From Limnothrix sp. CACIAM 69d (GTDB lineage Bacteria > Cyanobacteriota > Cyanobacteriia > CACIAM-69d): a stretch of 52,638 nt of DNA. The number at the start of each line of letters is the position of its first letter. Position 1 is the stretch's first letter. The stretch lies in NCBI GenBank assembly GCA_001913845.2, contig MKGP02000086.1, positions 1-52,638 on the forward strand, read 5' to 3'. Both the position numbers and the translations under genes were made by a program. This document shows positions 20,223-52,462 of the stretch, in pieces. The notes under the pieces are model-generated. The model worked only from the letters and a program-made list of their open reading frames with translations. It ran no database searches and was not told the DNA's origin.

Positions 20223-20242
20223 CAAGGGGCTTAAGCCCCTTG
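20223..20242. repeat. 20-bp palindromic repeat, copy 1
   Basis: A perfect palindrome with half-site CAAGGGGCTT in the spacer after ndhJ. The same 20 bases recur at 27934, 31605, 40593 and 50942. Two 18-base direct copies of the motif TAACGATACTCAAAGCCC follow at once (20247-20282). Confidence 0.9.
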
Positions 20243-26611: not shown

Positions 26612-29221
26612 TTGCCTGTGTCTCCGTTGCCATCATCACTGATTGCTAATCAAGCTGAGTCGATCCAGATTGAAACCCTGGAATTGTTGGAATGGCCGCG
26701 CCTTTGCCAGCACCTGGCAACCTTTACGGCAACCAAGCTGGGGGCGATCGTGGCCCGACAGTTGCCGATTCCGAGCGATCGCGCCACCAGTGAAACCCTG
26801 CTGGCCCAAACCCGCGAGGCTTGGGAGCTGGAACGCAGCGCCACCGGGGGCCTGAATTTTGGCGGCGTTGCCGATATTGGCTCGGCCCTCGATCGGGCGA
26901 CCCGGGGCGGCGTGCTGGCCGGCGATGAATTGCTGGAAGTGGCCACTACCCTGTCCGGGGCGCGGAACCTGCGACGGGCGATCGATCAGCGGGAAGATTT
27001 GCCGGCCTTGGCGGCCCTGGTGGAAGAGCTGCGGACTTATCCCGAACTCGAACAGGAAATTCACTACTGCATCGACGATCGGGGTGATGTGACCGATCGG
27101 GCCAGCCCCAAGTTGGCGGAGATTCGCGAAAAGCTGCGGGCCGGGCGCGATTGGATCTATCAAAAGCTGCACAACATCATGCAGCAGCATTCCAACGCGA
27201 TTCAGGAACCCAACATTAGCCAACGGGGCGATCGGTTCGTGATTCCCGTGAAAGCCAGCCACAAGGACGTGATTCGCGGCATTGTCCACGACACCTCCTC
27301 CACGGGCGCGACTTTGTACGTGGAACCCCACACGATTACGGAGCAAAACAACCGCCTGCGCCAATGGCAACGGCAAGAGGCGATCGAGTCAGAAATCGTC
27401 CGGCGCAAGCTCAGTGAACAGATTGCCGAAGTGGCCCCGGATCTGGAGCGGCTGTTGGCGGTGGCCACAGAGCTGGACTTGGCCGCCGCCCGCGCCCGCT
27501 ATTCCTTTTGGATTGAGGGTAATGCGCCGCGTTTTATTGACTCGGGCGAAACCCTGACCCTGCGGCAGTTGCGCCACCCGCTGCTGATTTGGCAACAGAA
27601 GCACGAACAGGGCCGCGATGTGATCCCGATCGATGTGCGTGTGGATCCAACGATTCGGGTGGTGGCAATTACGGGGCCGAACACGGGGGGCAAAACCGTC
27701 ACCCTGAAAACCTTGGGTTTGGCGGCCCTGATGGCGAAGGCGGGGTTGTTTGTGCCCGCGCGGGAGCCGGTGGAGCTGCCGTGGTTCAGCCAGGTGTTGG
27801 CGGATATTGGCGATGAACAGTCGATCGAGCAGAACCTTTCGACCTTCTCGGGTCACATCCGCCGGATCGTCCGCATCCTCGATGCCCTTCAGCCCACCCC
27901 CGTCACCACCCCAACCCCAGACCCATCGCCAGACAAGGGGCTTAAGCCCCTTGCCCCCGACGATGCCGATGCTAACGAGGCTTTGGACGGTGATGAGGTA
28001 AATGGGTTGGGGGTGATCGAGACCGTAGCAGCCCCCGATTTTGCGCCCTTCGCCGATCGCCCCGTCGCAGCACAATCGATCGCCTCGTTGGTGTTGCTCG
28101 ATGAAGTGGGCGCGGGAACCGACCCGGCCGAGGGGAGCGCCCTGGCCGCCGCCCTGCTGGAAACCCTGGCCGATCGCGCCCGCTTGACCGTGGCCACGAC
28201 CCACTTTGGGGAACTGAAAACCCTGAAATATCGCGACAGCCGGTTTGAGAACGCCTCGGTGGAATTTGATGACCAAACCCTCAGCCCCACCTATCGGTTG
28301 CTGTGGGGAATTCCCGGGCGATCGAACGCCTTGAGCATTGCCCGCCGCTTGGGTTTGGATGAAGCGGTGGTCACGGCCGCGGGCGATCGGGTGGGTGGTC
28401 AATCGGAAGACATTAACCGGACGATCGCCGGGTTGGAAGCCGAACGCCGCCGCCAGGAAGCCAAGGCCAATGAGGTGGCGCACCTGTTGCAGCGGGCAGA
28501 GTTTTTGCATGAACAAATCGATCGCAAGGCCCAAACCCTAAAGGAGCGCGAAGAACAGCTCAAGCAAACCCAGGAAGCCGCCGTCCAGAAGGAAATCGAG
28601 CGGGCCCGGGGCGAAATTGCCCAGGTGATCCGGCAGCTTCAGCGGGGCACGCCCACGGGCCAGCAAGCCCAGCAGGCTACGGCCCAAGTAGGCGAAATTG
28701 CCCAAAAATTCCTGCCATCTCAGCAGCCCAAACCAAAACCCAAAGGCTACAAACCCCAGGTGGGCGAACGGGTGCGCGTGCCCAAGCTCGGCGGCGCGGC
28801 GGAGGTGCTGGCGATCGATGAGGCCGATGAGGAAATCACGATTCGGATGGGGTTGATCAAAGCCACCCTCAGCTTTGCCGATGTGGAATCCCTCGACGGC
28901 AAAAAAATCGAGGTGCAAAAACCGGAGCCGAAACCCGCACCCCCACCGAAAGCGAAGGAGCGATCGATCCTGCGCACCAGCAGCAACACCCTAGATATTC
29001 GCGGGGCCCGAGTGGCCGACGCGGAAATCGAAGTGGAACAGGCGATCGATCGGGCGATTTCCGCCGACTTTGGTTGCCTCTGGATCTTGCATGGCAAGGG
29101 AACCGGTAAACTGCGAGACGGCGTGCGCGCCCACCTCAAAACCCATCGACTGGTGGAACGGTTTGAGGATGCCCCCCGCGAAGACGGCGGCACGGGCGTG
29201 ACGATCGCCTATTTGCGTTAG
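26612..29221 (+). CDS. mutS2: Endonuclease MutS2
   Basis: 869-residue MutS family ATPase. MutS2 proteins lack mismatch-recognition domain I and act in suppression of recombination and in ribosome-collision rescue. Seen: core/clamp domain; Walker A GPNTGGKTVTLKTLG (about 355-369); Walker B SLVLLDEVGAGTDPAEGSAL (about 491-510); a long coiled coil rich in Glu/Gln/Lys; a KOW-like segment VGERVRVPKLGGAAEVLAID; and a C-terminal Smr nuclease domain (LDIRGARVADAEIEVEQAID, ILHGKGTGKLRDGVRAHLK). Between the Walker motifs lies an extra loop of about 50 residues (QPTPVTTPTPDPSPDKGLKP onward) that contains a translated copy of the 20-bp palindrome. The start is TTG 26612 or GTG 26618; both are uncertain. 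Confidence 0.96.
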   Translation: MPVSPLPSSLIANQAESIQIETLELLEWPRLCQHLATFTATKLGAIVARQLPIPSDRATSETLLAQTREAWELERSATGGLNFGGVADIGSALDRATRGGVLAGDELLEVATTLSGARNLRRAIDQREDLPALAALVEELRTYPELEQEIHYCIDDRGDVTDRASPKLAEIREKLRAGRDWIYQKLHNIMQQHSNAIQEPNISQRGDRFVIPVKASHKDVIRGIVHDTSSTGATLYVEPHTITEQNNRLRQWQRQEAIESEIVRRKLSEQIAEVAPDLERLLAVATELDLAAARARYSFWIEGNAPRFIDSGETLTLRQLRHPLLIWQQKHEQGRDVIPIDVRVDPTIRVVAITGPNTGGKTVTLKTLGLAALMAKAGLFVPAREPVELPWFSQVLADIGDEQSIEQNLSTFSGHIRRIVRILDALQPTPVTTPTPDPSPDKGLKPLAPDDADANEALDGDEVNGLGVIETVAAPDFAPFADRPVAAQSIASLVLLDEVGAGTDPAEGSALAAALLETLADRARLTVATTHFGELKTLKYRDSRFENASVEFDDQTLSPTYRLLWGIPGRSNALSIARRLGLDEAVVTAAGDRVGGQSEDINRTIAGLEAERRRQEAKANEVAHLLQRAEFLHEQIDRKAQTLKEREEQLKQTQEAAVQKEIERARGEIAQVIRQLQRGTPTGQQAQQATAQVGEIAQKFLPSQQPKPKPKGYKPQVGERVRVPKLGGAAEVLAIDEADEEITIRMGLIKATLSFADVESLDGKKIEVQKPEPKPAPPPKAKERSILRTSSNTLDIRGARVADAEIEVEQAIDRAISADFGCLWILHGKGTGKLRDGVRAHLKTHRLVERFEDAPREDGGTGVTIAYLR
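27934..27953. repeat. 20-bp palindromic repeat, copy 2, inside mutS2
   Basis: A perfect palindrome with half-site CAAGGGGCTT within the coding sequence. It is translated as DKGLKPLA (residues about 441-448) in the extra loop between the ATPase motifs. It is the only copy found inside a gene in this window. Confidence 0.9.
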
Positions 29222-31604: not shown

Positions 31605-31624
31605 CAAGGGGCTTAAGCCCCTTG
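31605..31624. repeat. 20-bp palindromic repeat, copy 3
   Basis: Same palindrome (half-site CAAGGGGCTT). Here the symmetry extends to 26 bases (31602-31627, AGA outside on the left and TCT on the right). It lies 45 bases after the NUDIX stop and could act as a bidirectional hairpin between that gene and ridA. Confidence 0.9.
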
Positions 31625-40538: not shown

Positions 40539-40668
40539 AGGATGTCTGAGAAGTATCTTTCAGTACGGGCCGAGCATCAATTATCGTGGGGGCAAGGGGC
40601 TTAAGCCCCTTGTTTGCGTTGATTGCTGGAGCATACAGAGTAGCAAGTTTGGCTTTTCAGACATCCTC
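40538..40668 (+). mobile_element. Miniature inverted-repeat element type 1, copy B
   Basis: 131 bp. Left terminus GAGGATGTCTGAGAAG, right terminus complementary to GAGGATGTCTGAAAAGCC, flanked by perfect TTA duplications (40535-40537 and 40669-40671). The centre is the intact 20-bp palindrome (40593-40612). Both neighbouring genes, which converge here, end on its edges: the PatD-like gene with TAG at 40536-40538 and the SPOR-like gene with TAA at 40671-40669. There is no open frame of note and no transposase gene. Confidence 0.92.
40593..40612. repeat. 20-bp palindromic repeat, copy 4, in element B
   Basis: Perfect palindrome with half-site CAAGGGGCTT at the centre of repeat element B. Confidence 0.9.
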
Positions 40669-42259: not shown

Positions 42260-44152
42260 CTAGGTCAGGGAGTCAGGCTTAATCGGCAACTCCACCCGAA
42301 ATTCCGTTCCTTGCCCGATCGCCGTGCTGAATTCAATCAGTCCGCCATGGGACTTCACAATTCTTTCGCTCACGGACAAACCCAAACCCGTTCCCCGGCC
42401 CACCGGCTTGGTGGTGAAAAAGGGATTAAAAAGCTGATCCTGGGCCGATTCAGGAATTCCCATTCCGTTATCCCGCACCAAAACCCGCACCCGATCGCCC
42501 AAATTGACCAGGGACACGGCCAACATGGGTTGCCAGTTGGGGTCTTGGCATTGCCGGTCTTGGCGAATTGCCTCCTCCAGCGCATCCAGCGCATTGGTCA
42601 GTAAATGCAACAAAACCTGATTAATTTGGTCGGGATAGCACAACACTGGCGACACCGCCTCATAGCGCGTTTCGAGATTGACGCTCAATCCCGTTTTTTT
42701 GGCCATGGAATCGTTGCCCGTCAGCCGATGATTCAGAATCAACAAAGCGTGCTTAATGCTCGACTGCAAATTCAAGGGCTTCATTCCCTCTTCATCCAGA
42801 CCCGAAAAAGAGCGCAAAGCCAAGACGATCGAGTTAATTCGCAGCACCCCATTCTGCATGGAGTCCATCAGTTTCAGAAAATCATCCTGAATGAAGGGAA
42901 GATCTAATTCCGCCTCCAAGTCCTGTAGATGTTCCGGGCGATCGGGATAGGTTTCTTGATAGGCTCGCACCACATCAATTAAATCCTTGGTGTAGTTTTT
43001 GGCATACAGCAAATTGCCCCGAATAAAACTAACAGGATTGTTGATTTCATGGGCAATGCCAGCCACCAACTGGCCCAAACCGGACATTTTTTCCGCATGA
43101 ATCAGTTGGCTTTGGGTGTTGCGCAAATCCAACAACACCTGATTGAGGACTGCCGCTCGATCGCTCGACAAACGCTCCAATTCGGTGAGGGACTCATTGG
43201 CCCGTCGCAAATCCCCGATCGCCATGGTGCGTTCCCGATTCACCTGCACATAGCTTAAGCAAAGGCCACTGAAGGGAACCAAATAGGCCACAATTTTCAG
43301 AAAATGGGCAATATTAAACCCCGAATCAAACAGGGCCATTGACCCAAATACCATGTGAAGCTGAGTGGCAACCTGCGGAATCATGCTGACCCAAAGGGCC
43401 AAAGAAAAATAGCTGGGATATTTTTCATAAAACCGAGGCAATCCCCACAAACCCAAAAGGGCAAACAGCACTAACGGCCCCAAATCCCAAGGACGAGTCA
43501 CGATCGCATCGGGAAACAAGGTGGGTGGTAGCTTCTGACTGGTTAAGCACAGCCAAATGGTTAAATAGGCGAGCAAACCTAACCCCAAGGATGCGAAACC
43601 AATTAATGCTGAGCTACCCAGCCAAGATCGGCCTACCCACTGCCAGCGATCGGGCAAAAGATGACTGTTGGTATTCGTAATTGCAACCAGGCCCAGAGTC
43701 AAAATAGTGCCAGAAAATAACCGACAGAGCACCCAAGTAAAAGGAATTAAATCCACCGAGCTACCGGCAGAATCAATCAGGCGATCGGCAGCCAGGGTGT
43801 GAAACGCATCCATGCAACCGGCATAAAACAACACCAACCCAATCAGCGGGGTGACCAAATCTCGATGCAACGTAAAGTGCAAAAAGGCCAACACCGCCGT
43901 TAGGGTAGCGGCTGCAAAGGCGCTCCATTCCAAAATGGTGTGGATGAAACTACCTGCCAGCATGTGGTGCAACCCATCCACCAATTCCGGATCCTGCACA
44001 AAGCGAGGATCCGTCATGGCAGGGATAACCGTCGGATCCAAGGGCTGAATCACCGTGGAAAAAGACACCCCTGCCAACTCAAACAGCGACGGCAGAATGG
44101 TGATTACCAAAACAGCCCCAACCCAAACTTGAATGGTGCGTGGTTGAATCAT
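42260..44152 (-). CDS. Membrane sensor histidine kinase
   Basis: 630 residues from ATG 44152 (TTG 44191 would add 13). The N-terminal half has about eight membrane spans and resembles MASE-type integral sensor domains (LIGLVLFYAGCMDAFHTLAA, then FTWVLCRLFSGTILTLGLVA). The exact family is unsure. A short coiled coil (RRANESLTELERLSSDRAAV) leads to HisKA with GIAHEINNPVSF (phospho-His) and an HATPase_c domain with LLTNALDALEEA, VRDNGMGIPESA and GRGTGLGLSVSERIV. No response regulator gene is adjacent. The stop lies at 42260. Repeat element C stands about 120 bases upstream of the start. Confidence 0.9.
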   Translation of the reverse strand: MIQPRTIQVWVGAVLVITILPSLFELAGVSFSTVIQPLDPTVIPAMTDPRFVQDPELVDGLHHMLAGSFIHTILEWSAFAAATLTAVLAFLHFTLHRDLVTPLIGLVLFYAGCMDAFHTLAADRLIDSAGSSVDLIPFTWVLCRLFSGTILTLGLVAITNTNSHLLPDRWQWVGRSWLGSSALIGFASLGLGLLAYLTIWLCLTSQKLPPTLFPDAIVTRPWDLGPLVLFALLGLWGLPRFYEKYPSYFSLALWVSMIPQVATQLHMVFGSMALFDSGFNIAHFLKIVAYLVPFSGLCLSYVQVNRERTMAIGDLRRANESLTELERLSSDRAAVLNQVLLDLRNTQSQLIHAEKMSGLGQLVAGIAHEINNPVSFIRGNLLYAKNYTKDLIDVVRAYQETYPDRPEHLQDLEAELDLPFIQDDFLKLMDSMQNGVLRINSIVLALRSFSGLDEEGMKPLNLQSSIKHALLILNHRLTGNDSMAKKTGLSVNLETRYEAVSPVLCYPDQINQVLLHLLTNALDALEEAIRQDRQCQDPNWQPMLAVSLVNLGDRVRVLVRDNGMGIPESAQDQLFNPFFTTKPVGRGTGLGLSVSERIVKSHGGLIEFSTAIGQGTEFRVELPIKPDSLT

Positions 44153-44275
44153 GGGGTCGCGATCAAAACTCTCAGACAAACTTTCCAGCAAACTCTCAAG
44201 CTAATTCTCCAGCCAGTTCTCCAGTCAAATCCGAAGCTCATTCCTCGGTCAGTCCCTTGGTCAATTTCTTTCTAA
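44153..44275. repeat. Degenerate 15-base repeats upstream of the membrane kinase gene
   Basis: Loose tandem copies of TTCTCCAGYMARYTC-like sequence run from about 44165 to 44240. The unit is imperfect and may be a decayed microsatellite. It ends next to repeat element C. Confidence 0.4.
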
Positions 44276-44374
44276 GAGGATGTCTGAAAAGTGGTTCGGA
44301 TGGGCTGCCAAGCCCCTGGCTTGCGTCGATCGATCAGTCCGGCAAGTAGTAGCTGTGGCTTTTCAGACATTCTC
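44276..44374 (+). mobile_element. Miniature inverted-repeat element type 1, copy C (short)
   Basis: 99 bp with left terminus GAGGATGTCTGAAAAGTG and right terminus complementary to GAGAATGTCTGAAAAGCC, flanked by perfect TAA duplications (44273-44275 and 44375-44377). It is a shortened, diverged copy: the central palindrome is reduced to GCCAAGCCCCTGGCTTGC. It does not touch a gene end. Confidence 0.85.
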
Positions 44375-44474
44375 TAAACAAGTCTCTGAGGTCATTGCCA
44401 GGAACATCCCCAACTCAACCTCTAGGTGAATTTTTGGGCAAATTTCTGAAAAGAAACAGTCTCGATGGCCATTT

Positions 44475-44792
44475 TTAACCCCCAAGGGCGTTGGTGGTCC
44501 AACGGTTTCCAAGGGCCCTAACTGTCCATAAAGTACCCATCAGGCAAACCAGAAAAAATCCGGGAAGGACAATCGAAATCATCCAGAAAATTGAAGCATC
44601 AATGGTCGCCCTTGAATAGCGATCGCTCGGGATAGGCAACGATCGCGGGGTGACTCGTGACGGTTCAACAAGCCGAATTTTGAAAGGGTTTGATTGATTT
44701 TTCGCCCTAAGAGGATGTTTAAAAAGTATTCTTTGGCACGGGCAAGCACCAATAGTCGTGGAAGGGGCTGAGGGCCTGTCGTCGTTGAGCAC
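44475..44792 (-). CDS. Possible small membrane protein whose 5' end lies in repeat elements
   Basis: 105-codon frame from GTG 44792. The last 40 residues (DASIFWMISIVLPGFFLVCL then MGTLWTVRALGNRW) form one convincing membrane segment, but no family is recognised. About the first 27 codons lie inside repeat elements D and its nested insert, so the ancestral start has probably been replaced or the true start is internal (for example the ATG before ISIVLPGFF). It is either a small real gene truncated by the insertion or a chance frame. Confidence 0.3.
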   Translation of the reverse strand: MLNDDRPSAPSTTIGACPCQRILFKHPLRAKNQSNPFKIRLVEPSRVTPRSLPIPSDRYSRATIDASIFWMISIVLPGFFLVCLMGTLWTVRALGNRWTTNALGG

Positions 44793-44981
44793 GAAACCCT
44801 AGATCTGCCGTTAGCGGATCGTGGGGGACAAGGGGCTTGAGCATCTTGTTGCGACGACTAGGGCATGGAAGATCAACTGTTTCAGCATCACCTCGAAGTA
44901 ATGACGACAGGCCCTAAGCCCCTTGTCTAAGTCGATCACTGGGGCGTACAGAGTAGCAATTTTGGCTTTTCAGACATCCTC
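44711..44981 (+). mobile_element. Miniature inverted-repeat element type 1, copy D, interrupted by a type 2 element
   Basis: Left terminus GAGGATGTTTAAAAAG at 44711, right terminus complementary to GAGGATGTCTGAAAAGCC ending at 44981, flanked by perfect TAA duplications (44708-44710 and 44982-44984). Without the nested insert (44772-44914) it matches copies B and E. The insert splits the central palindrome into AAGGGGCTGA and TAAGCCCCTTG. The stop codon TAG of the CHAT gene (44983-44981) is made of the duplication and the first base of the terminal repeat. Confidence 0.9.
44772..44914. mobile_element. Miniature inverted-repeat element type 2, copy 1 (nested)
   Basis: 143 bp with perfect 12-bp terminal repeats GGGCCTGTCGTC and GACGACAGGCCC. 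It lies in the middle of element D at the TA of the palindrome (left flank GA, right flank TA; one base changed). The interior carries its own degenerate palindrome (CAAGGGGCTTGAGCATCTTG) and GATCGTGGGGGACAAG, shared with the copy at 48620. No open frame of note. Confidence 0.9.
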
Positions 44982-46927
44982 TAAGGGGCCCCAACGGTGA
45001 TAAAAGCAGACCAGTCCCGAGGATTTGGATGCTGTTTGATGGTTTCCAGCATGGCGCTGCGCAGGGCGACAGCGGTATCGGGATTGCGCTGAAGGGCTTG
45101 ATAAAAAGCAATCATCAGCGTTTTGGTGGGGTTGTCGGGCACTTTCCAAAGGGAAGCCACCACCGTGGGCACGCCGGCCACTAGGAACGATCGCGCCAGA
45201 CCCATCACCCCATCACCCGTAATGCGACCCCGACCAGTATTACAAGCACTCAACACCACAAACTGGGCTTGCAAGCGCATGGTGGCGATTTCTGCGGCTC
45301 GTAACAGACCATCATCCCCTCGGGAGGGAGCCAGGGCCAAGAGGCCAGGCACGGCCGGCTGCACCACCCCTTCCCCCGCTAAGGCAAGGTTGGCATTGTT
45401 GCCATTGACCGTTACGTTGCCACCAATAATCACAGAGCCAGGGCTGACAATTACGCCGCCCCGGCGAGCTTTGGGGGCGTTGGGATCGCGCGGGCGGCCA
45501 AACTCGTTCAAATTGGCATCCAGATCCAAGACCCCGTGGGTGGCGAAATGCAGGATCCGTTGATGGGGCATTTCAGCCACGATCGCGCTTTTGGTGGCCT
45601 GGTCGGTCAGCAGCGGTTGCACCCCCAACATTTGAGCCACCGCCTGGGCCTCGGTTTCAGCTCCGGGCAAAGGAGCCAGCCGCTCCCGTTGGCCATCCGG
45701 GCCGGCGGGTACTTCGGGCATTAAGACCGGGTTACCCACCACCAGACCGGGCTGGGCCGCAGGGGTTTGCGTTTTACGGCGTTGCTCAGCGATGGCTAAC
45801 ACCTGAAGGGATGGCGTTGTGGCGATCGTCTGGGTTTGAACCAGGTAATCGCCGTTGGGATTCTGGAGGGCCGCAAAGGGAACCAGGTTAGTGGCCCCTT
45901 GCACCACAAACACCAAGCGCTGTTTGGGATCGCGGGGCAATTGGGGGGCGATCGGGGCAATCAACAATTGGTAGAGCCGTTTTAGCTCGGTGGTGGCGCT
46001 GTCGGCGGTGGGCAGCACAGCGGTCATGGCTCCCCGGGCCGCCAATACCAATTCCGTGAGGGATTTGGCGGACACTTGGGCGAGATCCACTTCCTTGAAG
46101 GCGATCGACCCATTGGGTTGCACAGCCCAAATGGCGACGATCGAGTCATCTTCCAATTCATCACCAATAATCTTCGGGGTTTTGCCCAAGATCGCATAGG
46201 TGACGAGGGTCGCGTTGAGCTGTTTGGCCAGTTGGCGAATTTGCCCGATCGACAGGGATTCAGTTGTGGGCTGGCGGGCGGCCTGTTGCATCAACACTTC
46301 CACCAGCGCCCGGGCCCGACCCCGTTCGGCCCACTCCAGGGCCGCCTCGGTTTTGCCTTGGGCAATCAGCGTTCGCAACAGTTGGCGATAGGCGTAGCTT
46401 TGTTGTTCCAGCAGCGTCACCCGTTGAATATCGTTTAAGTCGCCGCTGGCTCGTTTGGTTTCCCAAGACTGAATCGCCATCAACAGATGCTTTTCGGCGG
46501 CCGCATAGTCGCGGGTGCGATATTCCGCAATGGCCAACCGACTCAGCCAAGTTTCGTTGCCCGGGTTCCCGTTGGCAAAACGCCGCAACAGGGGAATGGC
46601 CTCCGCATCCCGCCCCAACAGCATCAGACATTGGGCCAGGGGGCCAACGGCCTCGGGACGATTCTCGCCCCCTTGGTCGATCGCCTGTTGGTACAACCGG
46701 GCAGCTTCGGCGTATCGATCTTGGCGATAGAACAATTCATCGGCCCGTTGAATGAGGCGATCGACTTCGGGGCTTTGGGCCCGGTGGGGAAGCAGAGGAC
46801 GGGACTGGGGCAGTTGATCGTTGGGGATCAAGCGCCCGGCCGCCGTCACGGGCCCGCCGAGGCTGACCGATCCCCCCACGAGCGAGATCGTCGCCATTGC
46901 TAACCAGTGCCATCGCCAAGCCACCAT
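44981..46927 (-). CDS. CHAT domain (caspase-like) protein with TPR-like region
   Basis: 648 residues from ATG 46927, which has GGAGAG six bases upstream; ATG 46966 is an alternative. A signal peptide (WHWLAMATISLVGGSVSLGG ... TAAG) is followed by TPR-like helices (about 45-220), then a CHAT protease-like domain. The predicted catalytic pair is His in RILHFATHGVLD and Cys in VVLSACNTGRGRITGDGVMG. Between them is a Gly/Val/Asn-rich insert (GGVIVSPGSVIIGGNVTVNG and on) not usual for the family. Such proteins are common in cyanobacteria and their substrates are unknown. The stop codon TAG lies on the edge of repeat element D. It is divergent from the helicase gene. Confidence 0.9.
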   Translation of the reverse strand: MVAWRWHWLAMATISLVGGSVSLGGPVTAAGRLIPNDQLPQSRPLLPHRAQSPEVDRLIQRADELFYRQDRYAEAARLYQQAIDQGGENRPEAVGPLAQCLMLLGRDAEAIPLLRRFANGNPGNETWLSRLAIAEYRTRDYAAAEKHLLMAIQSWETKRASGDLNDIQRVTLLEQQSYAYRQLLRTLIAQGKTEAALEWAERGRARALVEVLMQQAARQPTTESLSIGQIRQLAKQLNATLVTYAILGKTPKIIGDELEDDSIVAIWAVQPNGSIAFKEVDLAQVSAKSLTELVLAARGAMTAVLPTADSATTELKRLYQLLIAPIAPQLPRDPKQRLVFVVQGATNLVPFAALQNPNGDYLVQTQTIATTPSLQVLAIAEQRRKTQTPAAQPGLVVGNPVLMPEVPAGPDGQRERLAPLPGAETEAQAVAQMLGVQPLLTDQATKSAIVAEMPHQRILHFATHGVLDLDANLNEFGRPRDPNAPKARRGGVIVSPGSVIIGGNVTVNGNNANLALAGEGVVQPAVPGLLALAPSRGDDGLLRAAEIATMRLQAQFVVLSACNTGRGRITGDGVMGLARSFLVAGVPTVVASLWKVPDNPTKTLMIAFYQALQRNPDTAVALRSAMLETIKQHPNPRDWSAFITVGAP

Positions 46928-47024
46928 AGGGCGCTCTCCGTTGATTAACCCAAACCGGGCTACCATGACTGCAATTCCACTTCTGTTCTATCAGATCCAT
47001 CAGCCCTGTCCGATTGCGCTGCCC

Positions 47025-48572
47025 ATGGCTCGGTTGCCCCGCTTAAGTTTCGATCGCGGCACTCTGATTTTGCATCCACCGCCCAAGGGCCGCAGTTGGA
47101 TTGAATGGGCCATTTGGGACGATCGAATCGAAAAGTTTCGGATTCCGGCGCATCAATACCGATCGTTGGTGGAGCGCTTGCGGGCCGAGGCGATCGAGTT
47201 TCAGGACGAGGCCAAGGAATTTGCCCCCCTGGAACTGCAACCCCGGTTGCAAATGGAACCCTATCCCCACCAGCAGGAGGCCCTGGCGGCCTGGAAACAG
47301 GCGGGTCGCCAAGGGGTGGTGGTGTTGCCAACGGCGGCGGGCAAAACCTACTTAGCCCAAATGGCCATGGTGGCTACACCGCGCAGCACGTTGGTGATTG
47401 TGCCCACGCTGGATTTGATGCATCAGTGGTATGCCCATTGGTCGGCGGCGTTTCCCGATGTGGCGGTGGGGTTGTTGGGGGGTGGCTCGCGCGATCGAAC
47501 GCCCCTGTTGGTGGCCACCTACGACAGCGCCGCTATCCATGCCGAAGCCTTGGGCAATCAGTATGGCCTGTTGATTTTTGATGAATGTCATCACTTGCCC
47601 AGCCAGTTTTATCGGGCGATCGCCGATTGTTCGATCGCCCCATACCGCTTGGGGCTAACGGCCACACCCGATCGGGCGGATGGTCGCCATGTGGATTTGG
47701 ATGAGCTGATTGGGCCCGAGGTCTACCGCAAAGCGCCGGAGGACTTGTCGGGCAAAGCCTTAGCCGATCACGAGGTGGTGCAAATTCGGGTGAACTTGGC
47801 CGATCGGGAGCGGGATCGCTACGAGACCTTGATTCAAACCCGGAATCAATTTTTACGATCGCAGAAAATTAGCTTTGGCTCCTTGGATGGCTGGCAGCGG
47901 TTTATTCAGGTTTCTGCCCGATCGGCCGAAGGCCGCCGGGCCTTGCTGGCGCACCACGAGGCCAAGGCGATCGCCCTCGGCACCGATGGCAAATTGCGCC
48001 TGTTGGCGGATTTATTGGCTCAACATCACCCCGATCGGGTGTTGATTTTCACCAACGACAACGCCACGGTCTATCGAATTTCCCAGGAATTCTTGATCCC
48101 CGCCATCACCCACCAAACGCCGGTCAAGGAGCGTCACGAAATTCTGCAAAAGTTCAAACAGGGGGACTATTGCACGATCGTTGTGGCCAATGTGTTGGAT
48201 GAAGGGGTGGATGTGCCCGATGCGAAGGTGGCGATTTTCTTGGCGGGCAGCGGTTCCACTCGGCAGTTCATTCAACGGTTGGGGCGAATTTTGCGGAAGG
48301 GCAGTGAACCGGGCAAACGGGCCATTCTCTACGAAGTGGTGGCGGCGGACACGGTGGAGGAACGCACGAGCGATCGCCGCCGCCCCACCACCCCATCGGC
48401 GGCCCCACCCGATCGCGCCAAGGGCCAACTCACCTTGCTGCCCAGTCCGTCTTCCGGGCGATCGCCTCTGAAGGCGGCGGAGGCCAAACCTCGCTATGGA
48501 TCTCGCCGGCCGCCGAAAACGCCTGCGCCCGATTCCAATCTCGATCCCGATCCTGAGGAAGCTGAGCAGTAA
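47025..48572 (+). CDS. XPB/Rad25-like DEAD/DEAH-box helicase
   Basis: 515 residues from ATG 47025; ATG 46965 would add 20 residues and overlap the divergent CHAT leader. Superfamily 2 motifs: Q-like YPHQQEALAAWKQAG, motif I VVLPTAAGKTYLAQM, motif II LIFDECHHLPSQF, motif III LGLTATPDRADG, then a helicase C domain with IFTNDNATVYRISQEF, VVANVLDEGVDVPDAKVAIF and the arginine-finger motif QRLGRILRKG. The C-terminal 90 residues are Pro/Arg-rich. The family is related to XPB. No nuclease partner gene (Bax1-like) is adjacent. Its substrate and role in repair are not known from sequence. Confidence 0.9.
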   Translation: MARLPRLSFDRGTLILHPPPKGRSWIEWAIWDDRIEKFRIPAHQYRSLVERLRAEAIEFQDEAKEFAPLELQPRLQMEPYPHQQEALAAWKQAGRQGVVVLPTAAGKTYLAQMAMVATPRSTLVIVPTLDLMHQWYAHWSAAFPDVAVGLLGGGSRDRTPLLVATYDSAAIHAEALGNQYGLLIFDECHHLPSQFYRAIADCSIAPYRLGLTATPDRADGRHVDLDELIGPEVYRKAPEDLSGKALADHEVVQIRVNLADRERDRYETLIQTRNQFLRSQKISFGSLDGWQRFIQVSARSAEGRRALLAHHEAKAIALGTDGKLRLLADLLAQHHPDRVLIFTNDNATVYRISQEFLIPAITHQTPVKERHEILQKFKQGDYCTIVVANVLDEGVDVPDAKVAIFLAGSGSTRQFIQRLGRILRKGSEPGKRAILYEVVAADTVEERTSDRRRPTTPSAAPPDRAKGQLTLLPSPSSGRSPLKAAEAKPRYGSRRPPKTPAPDSNLDPDPEEAEQ

Positions 48573-48796
48573 CGAAGGGGACTTGCAAAGCACCGATCGC
48601 CGTCGGGGCAAGGGGCTTAGGGCCTGTCGTCAAATCACCTGAAACCCTGATTCCACCGTTAACCGTTAGCAGATCGTGGGGGACAAGATGCTCAAGCCCC
48701 TTGTTACGACGATTGGGGCATGGAAAATCAACCGTTGTTGTCTGATCTCAGGAAATGACGACAGGGCTTCAGCCCCTTTCGAGCCTGGTGTGGAAT
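48573..48796. other. Convergent intergenic region holding a palindrome split by a type 2 element
   Basis: Between the helicase (rightward) and TPR (leftward) genes. The spacer is almost entirely the split palindrome CAAGGGGCTTA ... CAGCCCCTT and the type 2 element inserted at its centre. Confidence 0.6.
48620..48768. mobile_element. Miniature inverted-repeat element type 2, copy 2
   Basis: 149 bp with termini GGGCCTGTCGTC and GACGACAGGGCT (last three bases diverged). Flanks are TA on the left and TC on the right (one base off TA). It sits at the centre of a stand-alone palindromic repeat, exactly as copy 1 does. The interior shares GATCGTGGGGGACAAG and GGGGCATGGAAAATCAACC-like segments with copy 1. 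Confidence 0.88.
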
Positions 48797-50200
48797 TTAG
48801 AGCGAGTTCCGCAGTTCCCGCAATTGTTGCAAACCGGCTTGATCCTGTCGATCGCGGTAAATCACTTCCGCCGCCTGGAGATCTGCCCGCGCCGCCACTC
48901 GATCGCCCCGGGAGCGATGGGCCCTCGCTCGATTCAACAAGACGTTGGCATAGGTGGGCTGTAACCGCAGGGCCTCGGAATAATCCGCGATCGCCCCGAG
49001 CCAATCGCGCATTCCGGCCCGGGCTAACCCCCTGGCGTGGAAGGCTTCCGCATAGTCCACATTCACCCGCAGGGCCGCTGAATAGTCCGCGATCGCAGCT
49101 TCAAAGTTGCGTCGCTGATGATAAACCATCCCTCGGTTGACATAGGCATTGGCATAGAGCGGATCCAGTTCGATCGCCCGGTTCAAGTCCGCCAGGGCCT
49201 CCCGAATTTGTCCCATTTGGAAATAGCCTAACCCGCGTAGGTTATAGGCTTCGGCCACTTGGGGATCCACCGCGATCGCCTGGCCGTAGTCGGCCATGGC
49301 CCGGTTGCGATCGCCCGCAATGTGGCGCAACAGGCCGCGCTTCACCCAGCCGCTGGCCTGCTGGGGCCGCAGGGCCACCACCCGATCCAAATCCGCCGCC
49401 GCGCCCGGTCGATCGCCCCGGTCAAACCGCAACACGCCACGATTAAACAGGGCTTCCGCCGATTGGGGATTCCGGTCGATCGCCGCGTCAAAATCCGCCA
49501 AGGCCGCCGCCCCGTCGCCCCGTTGGCGGTGAACCGTTCCCCGGTTGATGTAGGCATTCACATAGTTGGGATCGAGGGCGATCGCCCGATCGTAATCCGC
49601 CAAAGCCGCGGCCCAATCTTGTTGATCGCGATAGGCATTGCCCCGGTTGTAGTAAATGGTTGGGTCATTTGAGTTTTGACTCAGGGCCGCTGAATAGTCC
49701 GCGATCGCCCCGGCCAGGTCGCCCCGGGCCCGACGCACCACCCCCCGATTCACCAGGGCATTGGTCAACTGCGGATCCAAGCGCAGGGCTTCGGTGTAGT
49801 CCGCGATCGCCGCTTCCGCCACCTGCAAGTTCCATTGGGCATTGCCCCGGTTGTAATAGAGCCGAGCCAGTTGGGCGGGGGGCAGTTGACCCGCCGGTTG
49901 CAGTTCGATCGCCTTGGAAAAGTCCGCCACCGCCCCGGCAAAGTCGCGATTACGGAGCCGTTCTTGGGCCCGGTTGGCAAAAAAGTCCGCAGATTCCTGA
50001 CCGATCGCCCCTTCGGAGTTAGGGGTTTGGGCCATCCAGTGATCGGCAGCCGGAGCCAAGTTGGGTTGTGGCAGCGACGGCGCGATCGCCCTAGCCGTTG
50101 TGGCTAAGCACAAACTCGCAACGGAACCACTGATTAGGATTAACCCTTTGCGCCATTGCCCTTTGCGCCATTGCCCTTTACGCCATTGTTCTTGTCTCAT
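48797..50200 (-). CDS. Exported TPR repeat protein
   Basis: 467 residues from ATG 50200. An N-terminal signal peptide with an unusual basic region made of three QWRKG repeats is followed by the hydrophobic core LILISGSVASLCLATTARAI. The rest (about 75-460) consists of eleven or so tetratricopeptide repeats of 34 residues, with the typical pattern YYNRGNA...DYTEALRLDP. TPR arrays serve as protein-binding scaffolds; the partner is unknown and the protein is probably periplasmic or lumenal. GAGAG lies a few bases before the ATG. It follows the YbjN-like gene by 17 bases on the same strand. Confidence 0.92.
   Translation of the reverse strand: MRQEQWRKGQWRKGQWRKGLILISGSVASLCLATTARAIAPSLPQPNLAPAADHWMAQTPNSEGAIGQESADFFANRAQERLRNRDFAGAVADFSKAIELQPAGQLPPAQLARLYYNRGNAQWNLQVAEAAIADYTEALRLDPQLTNALVNRGVVRRARGDLAGAIADYSAALSQNSNDPTIYYNRGNAYRDQQDWAAALADYDRAIALDPNYVNAYINRGTVHRQRGDGAAALADFDAAIDRNPQSAEALFNRGVLRFDRGDRPGAAADLDRVVALRPQQASGWVKRGLLRHIAGDRNRAMADYGQAIAVDPQVAEAYNLRGLGYFQMGQIREALADLNRAIELDPLYANAYVNRGMVYHQRRNFEAAIADYSAALRVNVDYAEAFHARGLARAGMRDWLGAIADYSEALRLQPTYANVLLNRARAHRSRGDRVAARADLQAAEVIYRDRQDQAGLQQLRELRNSL
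50144..50188 (-). repeat. 15-base tandem repeat in the signal peptide coding region
   Basis: Three copies of CAATGGCGCAAAGGG (one with a single change) in direct succession encode QWRKG three times in the basic part of the TPR protein's signal peptide. Change in copy number would alter its positive charge but keep the frame. Confidence 0.85.
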
Positions 50201-50217
50201 CAATTTCTCTCAAGCCG

Positions 50218-50676
50218 TTAGGTCAAACTGGGCACGCGATCGACCGCCCGTTGACCGCCCCAGCGCGAGACGATCGCATCGTCATATTCATCCGCCAAGG
50301 ACAAAACCGCCTGCACCGATGCTTCCAATTCCGGGCGATCGCACTCAGAACCCACGATCGCATGGTTTAGGAAAATATCACCATCGGCATCGATTCCAAA
50401 AGCCCCGAACAGCAACCGATCATTCTCACGTAATAGATAGTGCATCAGCTCCGGCGACAAATCCACATTGGTCACCACATAGGAGCGCGTGTTCACCACT
50501 GCATCATCGTCCCCCCAGGGCAACACCTCCACCAACACACAGGCAGAACCGGCGGTGATGTAAGCCGTGGGATGGGGTGCTTCCATGTCAATCACCACAT
50601 CGGACCAAATCCCTTGGAGCCAAGGAAAAATCTTCTCGTAACAGCTTTTTTGGGCTTCGGTTTTAAATGTCGCCAT
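50218..50676 (-). CDS. YbjN domain-containing protein
   Basis: 152 residues from ATG 50676 (an open frame to 50823 has unlikely sequence). It matches YbjN-type proteins, which have a fold related to type III secretion chaperones and an unclear function. Recognisable parts: FKTEAQKSCYEKIFPWLQGI, ITAGSACVLVEVLPWGDDDA, TNVDLSPELMHYLLRENDRL then LFGAFGIDADGDIFLNHAIV. Cytoplasmic, no signal. It precedes the TPR gene closely, so a shared transcript is likely. Confidence 0.85.
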   Translation of the reverse strand: MATFKTEAQKSCYEKIFPWLQGIWSDVVIDMEAPHPTAYITAGSACVLVEVLPWGDDDAVVNTRSYVVTNVDLSPELMHYLLRENDRLLFGAFGIDADGDIFLNHAIVGSECDRPELEASVQAVLSLADEYDDAIVSRWGGQRAVDRVPSLT

Positions 50677-50886
50677 GCGGATCACCCCAAATTTATGTTG
50701 AAAAACAATCTCCTCAGCGGCAGATGATCCGCCAGCGACTCCAGCAACGGCCCTGAATCGCCAGGGTGGGAGCTTGCTGAATTGGGCCGGCTCGATCGGG
50801 CTGCAATATTGCCGTTTTAACAAAAATCCAGAACTCCCGTCCTGATGTGGCCAATCATTACAGCTTTTACCGGCTTGCGACCCTAA

Positions 50887-51017
50887 GAGGATGTCTGAGA
50901 AGTATCTTTCAATATGGGCTGAAGATTAATTGTCGTAGGAACAAGGGGCTTAAGCCCCTTGTCTACATCGATCTCTGGGGCGTACAGAGTAGCAATTTTG
51001 GCTTTTCAGACATCCTC
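50887..51017 (+). mobile_element. Miniature inverted-repeat element type 1, copy E
   Basis: 131 bp with left terminus GAGGATGTCTGAGAAG and right terminus complementary to GAGGATGTCTGAAAAGCC, flanked by perfect TAA duplications (50884-50886 and 51018-51020). The intact 20-bp palindrome lies at 50942-50961. The stop codon TAG of the SelO gene (51019-51017) is formed by the duplication plus the first base of the terminal repeat. Copies B and E are the most alike. Confidence 0.92.
50942..50961. repeat. 20-bp palindromic repeat, copy 5, in element E
   Basis: Perfect palindrome with half-site CAAGGGGCTT; symmetry extends one more base on each side. Confidence 0.9.
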
Positions 51018-52462
51018 TAAGAACCGATCGCCCTCAGCAGTTCCGCGAAGGGTTGCCAATCGTCGGCCTGGTCGATCGCCTCCCAAACACGCTCAATTTC
51101 GGGCCGGACGATCGTGATCAACGGGTTAGCCCGCTGGAGTTGGTCAGCCACGGCCGCCAAGTCCTGATCCGATTGCTGTTGCAAAATTCGCCCATAAACT
51201 TCGCACCATTTTCCCCAATAGGCCAGGGTTTCCCCTTGGGGGTTGCTGTCAGCAGGGCCCACCCAAAAGGGGCGATCGCTGGCATAGTCTTCCGGGCGAT
51301 CGCGCCAACTGGGGGCAAAGTGGCTGCGCAGTTTGGCAAAGAACGCGTGATAGGGCGTTTGGGAAACGGCTAAAAATTGCACCGTTGCCTCCACCAAATC
51401 ATCCGCCTCTGCTTCTGCCAAATGCTCAAACCCCAGCCGGGCCGCCATTAACCGGCGATATTCTTGAGCATATTGTTCTGGGAATCGTTCCAGTCCGGCT
51501 TCTAAATCTGCCACCGGCATCACCATTTCCAGCGGCCGTTGCAACAGCTCCAAATTCAAGCGGCAAATGGTGGGTTGGTTGCCATAGGCGTAGCGGCCGT
51601 AATAGTCAAAATAGGCCGCCGTAAATTGCAAATCGTAAGTGGGAATGAAAGCATAGGGGCCATAGTCGAAACTCTGGCCCGTGATCAGCATATTGTCCGT
51701 GTTCAAAACCGCATGGCAGAACCCCGCCACCATCCATTGGGCACAAAGCCGCGCCACCCGCTCCACCAATTCGGCATAGAGCTTGGCTTTCCAATCCCGA
51801 TCGCCTGCCCAATGGCCATAGTAGGTTTCCAGCACATGGGCCAACAGGCGATCGATTAAATCAGGCCGCTTGAGATAGTGCAGGCGCTCAAACGTGCCAA
51901 ATCGAATGTGGCTTGCTCCCATCCGCACAATCACGGACGATCGCGTGGGCGAAGGTTCATCACCTCGCCACAGTTTTTCGCCCGTTTCAATCAGTGACAA
52001 GGTGCGTGATGTGTTGACCCCCAACCGATCGAGCATCTCCGTCGCCAACACTTCCCGCACGCCACCCTTAAGGGTCAAGCGCCCATCGCCGTTTCGGGAA
52101 TAGGGAGTTTGGCCGGATCCTTTCGTGGCCAAATCATAAAGAACGCCGTCTTGGCCCCGCACTTGGCCATATAAAAACCCCCGTCCATCGCCCAACCGTG
52201 GGTTATATTCCCCAAACTGATAGCCGTGGTAACGCATGGCCAGCAGCGGTTCCCGTCCGACAAATTGCCCAAAGGCCGCCACAAAGTCATCGTCACAAAC
52301 CGCCGCAGGATCTAGCCCCAGCTTCGGCAGCAGGTGATCATTCCGAAAGCGCAATTGATGCATTGGAAATTCGGCGGCCGCCACCGGGTCAAAATAATCG
52401 TCCCCCAGTGACTGAAAAGCGGGTTCGTAATCCAAACGCAGAAATGGATTGGCGGGGGTCAT
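51017..52462 (-). CDS. selO: SelO-family protein (UPF0061, protein adenylyltransferase)
   Basis: 481 residues from ATG 52462; the frame is open to 52573 with unrelated sequence. SelO is a pseudokinase-fold enzyme that transfers AMP to Ser/Thr/Tyr of target proteins. Matching segments: [40 protein letters not shown] then [34 protein letters not shown] and [20 protein letters not shown] followed by [10 protein letters not shown] with the metal-binding Asn/Asp. The C-terminus lacks the Cys/Sec-Ser-Ser tail of some SelO proteins. The stop codon TAG is created at the edge of repeat element E, but the length fits the cyanobacterial subgroup as I recall it, so little or nothing may have been lost. 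Confidence 0.93.

Follow-up and report, generated by a model that had tools for sequence, protein, structure and literature searches.

T2, a short repeat in the genome of Limnothrix sp. CACIAM 69d, is a MITE that prefers the centres of palindromes, a kind of targeting known for pairs of insertion sequences (IS) and REPs. With a probability of about 0.88, we take T2 to be the MITE of an IS5-family element that inserts at TA and favours the palindrome centre, and whose nesting and half-loss yield arrays and chimeras. T2 duplicates TA and uses the palindrome centre, in large excess over other TA sites.

Structure of T2 and its copies in the window

The window, meaning the whole stretch of 52,638 nucleotides that was analysed, corresponds to contig C69 in a draft genome of 4.57 Mb, has 55% GC and is rich in GCGATCGC. 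Its relevant features are collected in Table 1. Copies of T2 collected from the genome define a canonical unit of 142 bp that is flanked by TA and bears the 12-bp inverted repeat GGGCCTGTCGTC at both ends. As a MITE should be, it is short and non-coding, being too small to encode a transposase, and has terminal inverted repeats; it duplicates its TA target site, has empty sites in relatives and shares its ends with an autonomous partner in relatives, though not in the host. The left half falls into two subfamilies, and a relative of 189 bp has a different filling.

The middle of T2 is itself a palindrome, which is perfectly or nearly symmetric in 40 of 70 centres. The remaining 30 are asymmetric and take two mutually reverse-complementary forms (21 and 9 centres) within otherwise similar surroundings. 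These asymmetric 20-bp centres, CAAGGGGCTTGAGCATCTTG and CAAGATGCTCAAGCCCCTTG, are exact reverse complements of each other, as if flipped in place. The window copies are both asymmetric, one of each form, with the centres CTTGAG and CTCAAG; the centre of the first copy lies at 44829-44848. Both have lost the central TA, so neither can host stacking. The earlier note, made from the letters of the window alone, had proposed that such units stack recursively; arrays and chimeras elsewhere in the genome bear out the process, but it is impossible in the two window copies.

Table 1 Features of the window, with positions counted from its first nucleotide
Feature	Position	Strand	Remarks
Uninterrupted palindrome AAGGGGCTTAAGCCCCTT	20224..20241	.	
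Uninterrupted palindrome	27935..27952	.	Within 869-aa ORF 26612-29221 (+)
Uninterrupted palindrome	31606..31623	.	
Uninterrupted palindrome, type 1 element centre	40594..40611	.	
Type 1 element with nested T2	44711..44981	+	Outer TAA duplication 44708-44710 and 44982-44984; entire composite missing in G002
Left half palindrome of type 1 centre, AAGGGGCTGA	44762..44771	+	
First T2 copy, 143 bp, at type 1 palindrome centre	44772..44914	+	
Right half palindrome of type 1 centre, TAAGCCCCTT	44915..44924	+	
Probable remnant, left half of the type 1 element in which the target palindrome lay	48577..48599 (about)	+	GGGGACTTGCAAAGCACCGATCG
Left half of split palindrome, CAAGGGGCTTA, TA-terminated	48609..48619	+	48610-48619 is AAGGGGCTTA; palindrome intact here in G002
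T2 MITE copy	48620..48768	+	149 bp, 7 bases more than the canonical 142 bp; missing at orthologous G002 locus
Left terminal inverted repeat GGGCCTGTCGTC of 48620 T2 copy	48620..48631	+	
Inner degenerate palindrome CAAGATGCTCAAGCCCCTTG of 48620 copy	48684..48703	+	Without central TA; flipped relative to 44772 copy
Right terminal inverted repeat of 48620 T2 copy, degenerate (GACGACAGGGCT)	48757..48768	-	
Right half of split palindrome, TCAGCCCCTT	48769..48778	+	TA mutated to TC
Uninterrupted palindrome, type 1 element centre	50943..50960	.	

Inspection of the sequence confirmed that the second T2 copy spans 48620-48768 between the halves of a split palindrome, as previously described, and that both window copies interrupt AAGGGGCT-TA-AGCCCCTT centrally. 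Each copy has one TA duplicate substituted (GA at 44770-44771 on the left of the first, TC at 48769-48770 on the right of the second), so that the shared TA is read from one clean side each; the empty sites of the relative G002 confirm it. According to the ORF listing, the 48620 copy is flanked by the convergent ORFs 46821-48572 (+) and 48797-50203 (-). The latter contains 102-bp periodic repeats at 48959-49937 and probably encodes a tandem-repeat protein.

The earlier note also held that no type 1 element surrounds the second copy, which is not quite right. The segment at 48577-48599, GGGGACTTGCAAAGCACCGATCG, aligns locally with a type 1 copy, in the inner part of its left half, at a score of 32, against a maximum of 24 in 300 shuffles. 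Given this match, the 48620 copy probably split the central palindrome of a decayed type 1 element.

Type 1 ends (GAGGATGTCTGAAAAG) together with the TNA duplication, as seen at 44711-44981 and in the copies round 40594-40611 and 50943-50960, resemble the ends of another group of IS5-type transposase loci (L179, L181 and L189). A third MITE family, T3 (L020, L119 and L140; ends near TAGTGGCGC...CGCTACTA), also has a central palindrome and hosts T2-type insertions.

Target preference in the genome

T2 ends were sampled by perfect terminal repeats only and hence blind to the flank, because a query including the palindrome would inflate the palindrome share. Across the genome, TA precedes 50 of 66 perfect ends, and a palindrome half adjoins 25 of them, in that the 8 bases preceding the dinucleotide differ from AAGGGGCT at no more than 2 positions. 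The match of the flanks to AAGGGGCT has a two-humped distribution. De-duplication by a hand-made list, which kept one end per copy, counted a thrice-copied composite once and dropped copies within arrays, left 15 of 53 copies (28%) at the palindrome. In the single 52-kb window from which the background was taken, palindrome-like sites make up 1.4% of all TA sites and likewise 1.4% of the intergenic ones (6/425); p is about 7e-16 against the intergenic share. The palindrome is thus preferred about twenty-fold, and most T2 copies nonetheless lie at ordinary TA sites.

Targeting of the palindrome centre is therefore a strong preference, not an exclusive one. That this centre is a repeated target had been proposed from the window alone, and the genomic counts and the empty palindromes in G002 agree. 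Both window copies do occupy the palindrome TA, but "two of two" overstates a preference of roughly 30-40%. A majority of genomic copies outside the palindrome, which the earlier note had named as grounds for giving the idea up, is formally what we found; exclusive targeting falls with it, and the idea itself is still right. Selection after insertion may add to the bias, with palindromes lying in tolerated intergenic repeats, an effect that the intergenic control lessens but does not remove.

A 4-bp YTAR duplication was rejected, as the left and right flanks at C14:32177 share TA only. Solitary TAGGGCCTGTCGTC ends without a partner occur near ORFs at L066:488, L067:544, L085:510 and L088:2497 and are possibly remnants or parts of other elements.

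Empty sites in congeners

The congener G002, about 95% identical, has an uninterrupted palindrome (GGGGCAAGGGGCTTAAGCCCCTTGTCTGCG) where T2 sits at 48620-48768, and window positions 44981-48619 and 48777-49800 align to its two sides. The composite of type 1 and T2 at 44711-44981 is entirely missing there, with one TAA left. We searched the flanks of 20 further T2 loci in the same genome. Uninterrupted palindromes, some slightly degenerate, were found at five more target loci (C36, C62, C63:132849, C24:221877 and C85), and empty sites with just one TA at the plain-TA loci C14, C72, C53:142983, C100:41976 and C63:168144. At C27, G002 has one half unit fewer.

The host (G000) carries a full T2 at C16:97185, and G002 carries a left half together with the palindrome, oppositely oriented (C19), both in the same type 1 palindrome; two separate insertions are the simplest reading. 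At C43, C64 and C24:5244 the entire outer element is missing in G002, which makes these loci mute on the order of events. C100:23300 was dropped as a before-and-after case of self-insertion, the old half being only 75% alike to the G002 copy. Taken side by side, the congeners display an empty palindrome, a single insert and nested or half-shuffled inserts, and with these three states one can directly test how targets are chosen, how elements nest and how chimeric repeats arise.

Candidate transposases

The host draft assembly yielded no autonomous element with T2 ends. A search of the host gave 0 matches to DUF4096 and 3 to DDE_Tnp_1, none of the latter with T2 ends; these 3 lie at contig edges, so that a collapsed copy may be absent from the draft. 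Across the genus, DDE_Tnp_1 was found at eight loci, none with T2 ends. An origin from IS630/Tc1-mariner (DDE_3) was rejected, as the 3 host DDE_3 loci all lack T2 ends.

A transposase with TA target choice and T2 ends, for which the earlier note had advised a search, is present in relatives. DUF4096 loci with both T2-type ends are L199 (823 bp) and L204 (834 bp), both in G018, and L196 in G004, a genome of the same family; the ends of L207 (G005) are degenerate. L196 measures 862 bp (GGGGGTGTCGTCATTT...GACGACAGCCCC) and has two frames, DUF4096 and DDE_Tnp_1, with both ORFs above the cut-off of NF033580 (NCBIfam IS5 family). With aacaaggggctta on its left and taagccccttgcccc (taagccccttg) on its right, L196 occupies the central TA of this same palindrome, inside T2 halves. 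TA duplication is also seen for the relatives' transposase elements with T2-type ends. In a tree of about 100 residues from 30 loci, transposases with T2-type ends cluster together and those with type 1-like ends cluster elsewhere.

T2 thus has its ends in common with IS5-family transposase genes and, judging by these ends, is likely to be moved by an IS5-type transposase (DUF4096 plus DDE_Tnp_1). TA duplication and GGG ends were observed, and T2 may belong to the IS427 group of the IS5 family, which is marked by TA duplication and GG ends.

Half-unit arrays and chimeras

T2 stacking is real, as seen in half-unit arrays and in chimeras of type 1 and T2. In the arrays, a left half ending in AAGGGGCTTA is followed by a complete unit. 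They occur at C100:84482, C17, C53:132695, C80:125146, C36, C6:40070, C27, C12, C80:28773 and C23, as well as in G001 (C88), and the one at C80:28773 comprises three halves. Neighbouring halves differ in subfamily or orientation at C80:125146, C23:17391, C36:16598, C6:40070 and C30:21538, which excludes plain tandem duplication at those five loci; insertion is the straightforward reading there. Halves are 96-99% identical in several arrays (C100:84482, C12, C17, C27 and C80), for which tandem duplication is simpler than a new insertion. A further array, L118:560-950 (G001:C88), has five successive T2 half units that are alike in pairs, which suggests alternating insertion and tandem duplication.

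The chimeras combine a T2 left half with a type 1 right half (L021 and L064) or a T3 left half with a T2 right half (L091), and at C51:2540 a type 1 half lies inside T2. All of these are joined at the palindrome.

Proposed mechanism and alternative explanations

We propose that T2 derives, as a non-autonomous miniature, from an insertion sequence of the IS5 family with ends close to GGGCSTGTCRTC, whose transposase would put its elements into TA and duplicate it. The TTAA centre of AAGGGGCTTAAGCCCCTT may be favoured either by the transposase or by the geometry of the local DNA, with its perfect two-fold symmetry and easy cruciform or hairpin formation. As the palindrome is central in T2 and in at least two other MITE families of the TA/TNA type, the elements would nest in one another and in their own kind. 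One half could then be lost, either through a deletion between the duplicated arms AAGCCCCTTG or when tandem halves slip, which would restore a perfect palindrome and leave arrays of half units as well as chimeras that again offer a target at their centre. The 48620 copy would exemplify such an insertion: its target palindrome was probably the remains of a decayed type 1 element, and, with no TA at its own centre, the copy is a dead end.

It is quite improbable that T2 enters any TA and that the copies at palindromes are simply those that survive in tolerated intergenic repeats. The T2 copies and palindromes of the window are mostly intergenic, several of them between convergent ORF ends, as such survival would have it; palindromes nevertheless account for 1.4% of intergenic TA against 28-38% of copies, and the same type 1 palindrome was apparently struck separately in two species. 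Transposition could also be dispensed with if palindromes recombined with or converted each other and carried T2 along, which we regard as highly improbable. Chimeras joined at the palindrome, central 20-mers inverted in otherwise similar copies and tandem half-arrays do point to recombination or slippage at palindromes. However, T2 also lies, with clean TA duplications, at plain TA sites where G002 has no insert, complete nests keep the flanking type 1 or T3 halves round T2, and the autonomous IS L196 uses the same target.

Compatible with T2 targeting, though rather unlikely, is the idea of the palindrome as a tiny mobile element in its own right, inserted into the centres of type 1, T2, T3 and other families. 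The same palindrome of 18-20 bp is indeed central in unrelated repeats elsewhere among cyanobacterial families (G004, G013 and G017), but it has no ends of its own, no T2 relative was identified that lacks the palindrome, is otherwise intact at its centre and could represent the empty site, and shared ancestry with half-swapping would also explain the sharing within the genus. To the transposition of T2 into palindrome centres we add, tentatively and at somewhat less than even odds, that the palindrome could be a portable docking site borne centrally by TA-inserting elements of several IS5-type families. If so, each copy would bring a fresh target, and insertion plus half loss would regenerate it, making for a self-propagating, half-shuffling target system common to unrelated MITE families and to several cyanobacterial families.

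Relation to known systems

Tobes and Pareja 2006 (PMC1525189) describe IS elements with REP palindromes as their specific insertion sites, namely ISPsy8, ISPa11, ISPpu9/10, ISRm19 and ISRm22. Like these, T2 prefers a repeated extragenic palindrome; unlike them, it is a 142-bp MITE with TA duplication and the palindrome at its own centre, REPs not being reported as part of the IS in the abstract (PMC1525189). REP-family repeats within small palindromes, such as GTAG-23 of T. roseum, whose target palindrome has hundreds of copies, CGTC-1 of H. neapolitanus and GTAG-15 of A. variabilis (PMC3733652), resemble T2 as small repeats that split a repeated palindrome midway. T2 differs from REPs in its inverted repeats, TA duplication and DDE-type relatives. 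REPs, hairpins tagged with GTAG/CGTC, are linked to tyrosine transposases (RAYTs), and the TA duplication argues against a REP/RAYT identity for T2.

Nezha and other cyanobacterial MITEs are short non-autonomous inverted-repeat elements (PMC3733652). T2 is likewise such an element in a cyanobacterium. We know of no palindrome-centre target for Nezha. With the IS5 family (NCBIfam transpos_IS5_3) and its MITEs, T2 shares a two-frame transposase with T2 ends in relatives, the TA duplication and the derivation of a MITE by internal deletion, but it strongly prefers one 18-bp palindrome. A literature search of incomplete coverage retrieved no description of an element whose preferred target is its own centre. 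Transposons that choose repeated palindromes are already known; what is new is an element that bears its preferred target centrally, and the system suggests a natural IS5-type transposase that is selective for a defined sequence of 18 bp.

Abundance and setting of the palindrome

The palindrome, AAGGGGCTTAAGCCCCTT, is 18 bp long with a TTAA centre. At up to 2 mismatches, the 4.57-Mb genome contains 364 sites, compared with 1 for the reversed pattern used as a control. Five uninterrupted palindromes lie in the window, where 19 half-palindromes were counted at up to 1 mismatch against 2.8 expected. Counts in relatives (up to 1 mismatch) are 373 and 140 for congeners, 48 for G004, and 46 and 13 for two further families within the class; most relatives have 0. 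In distant cyanobacterial families, the palindrome is central in differing repeats with unrelated flanks (L165, L169, L173 and L177 in G017; L166, L170 and L174 in G013).

Folded as RNA, the palindrome is predicted to form a hairpin of ten pairs at -18.4 kcal/mol, and the asymmetric centre of a window copy gives -5.8. An Rfam search over 43900-51300 and a DNA search of a plasmid collection gave no match, and the matches listed in a literature search with the letters of the palindrome and ends were unrelated by title. The palindrome at 27935-27952 lies within ORF 26612-29221, and the repeat may be translated there. Elsewhere in the window, a near-identical 60-bp tandem repeat is present at 781-954, its two copies being 95% alike.
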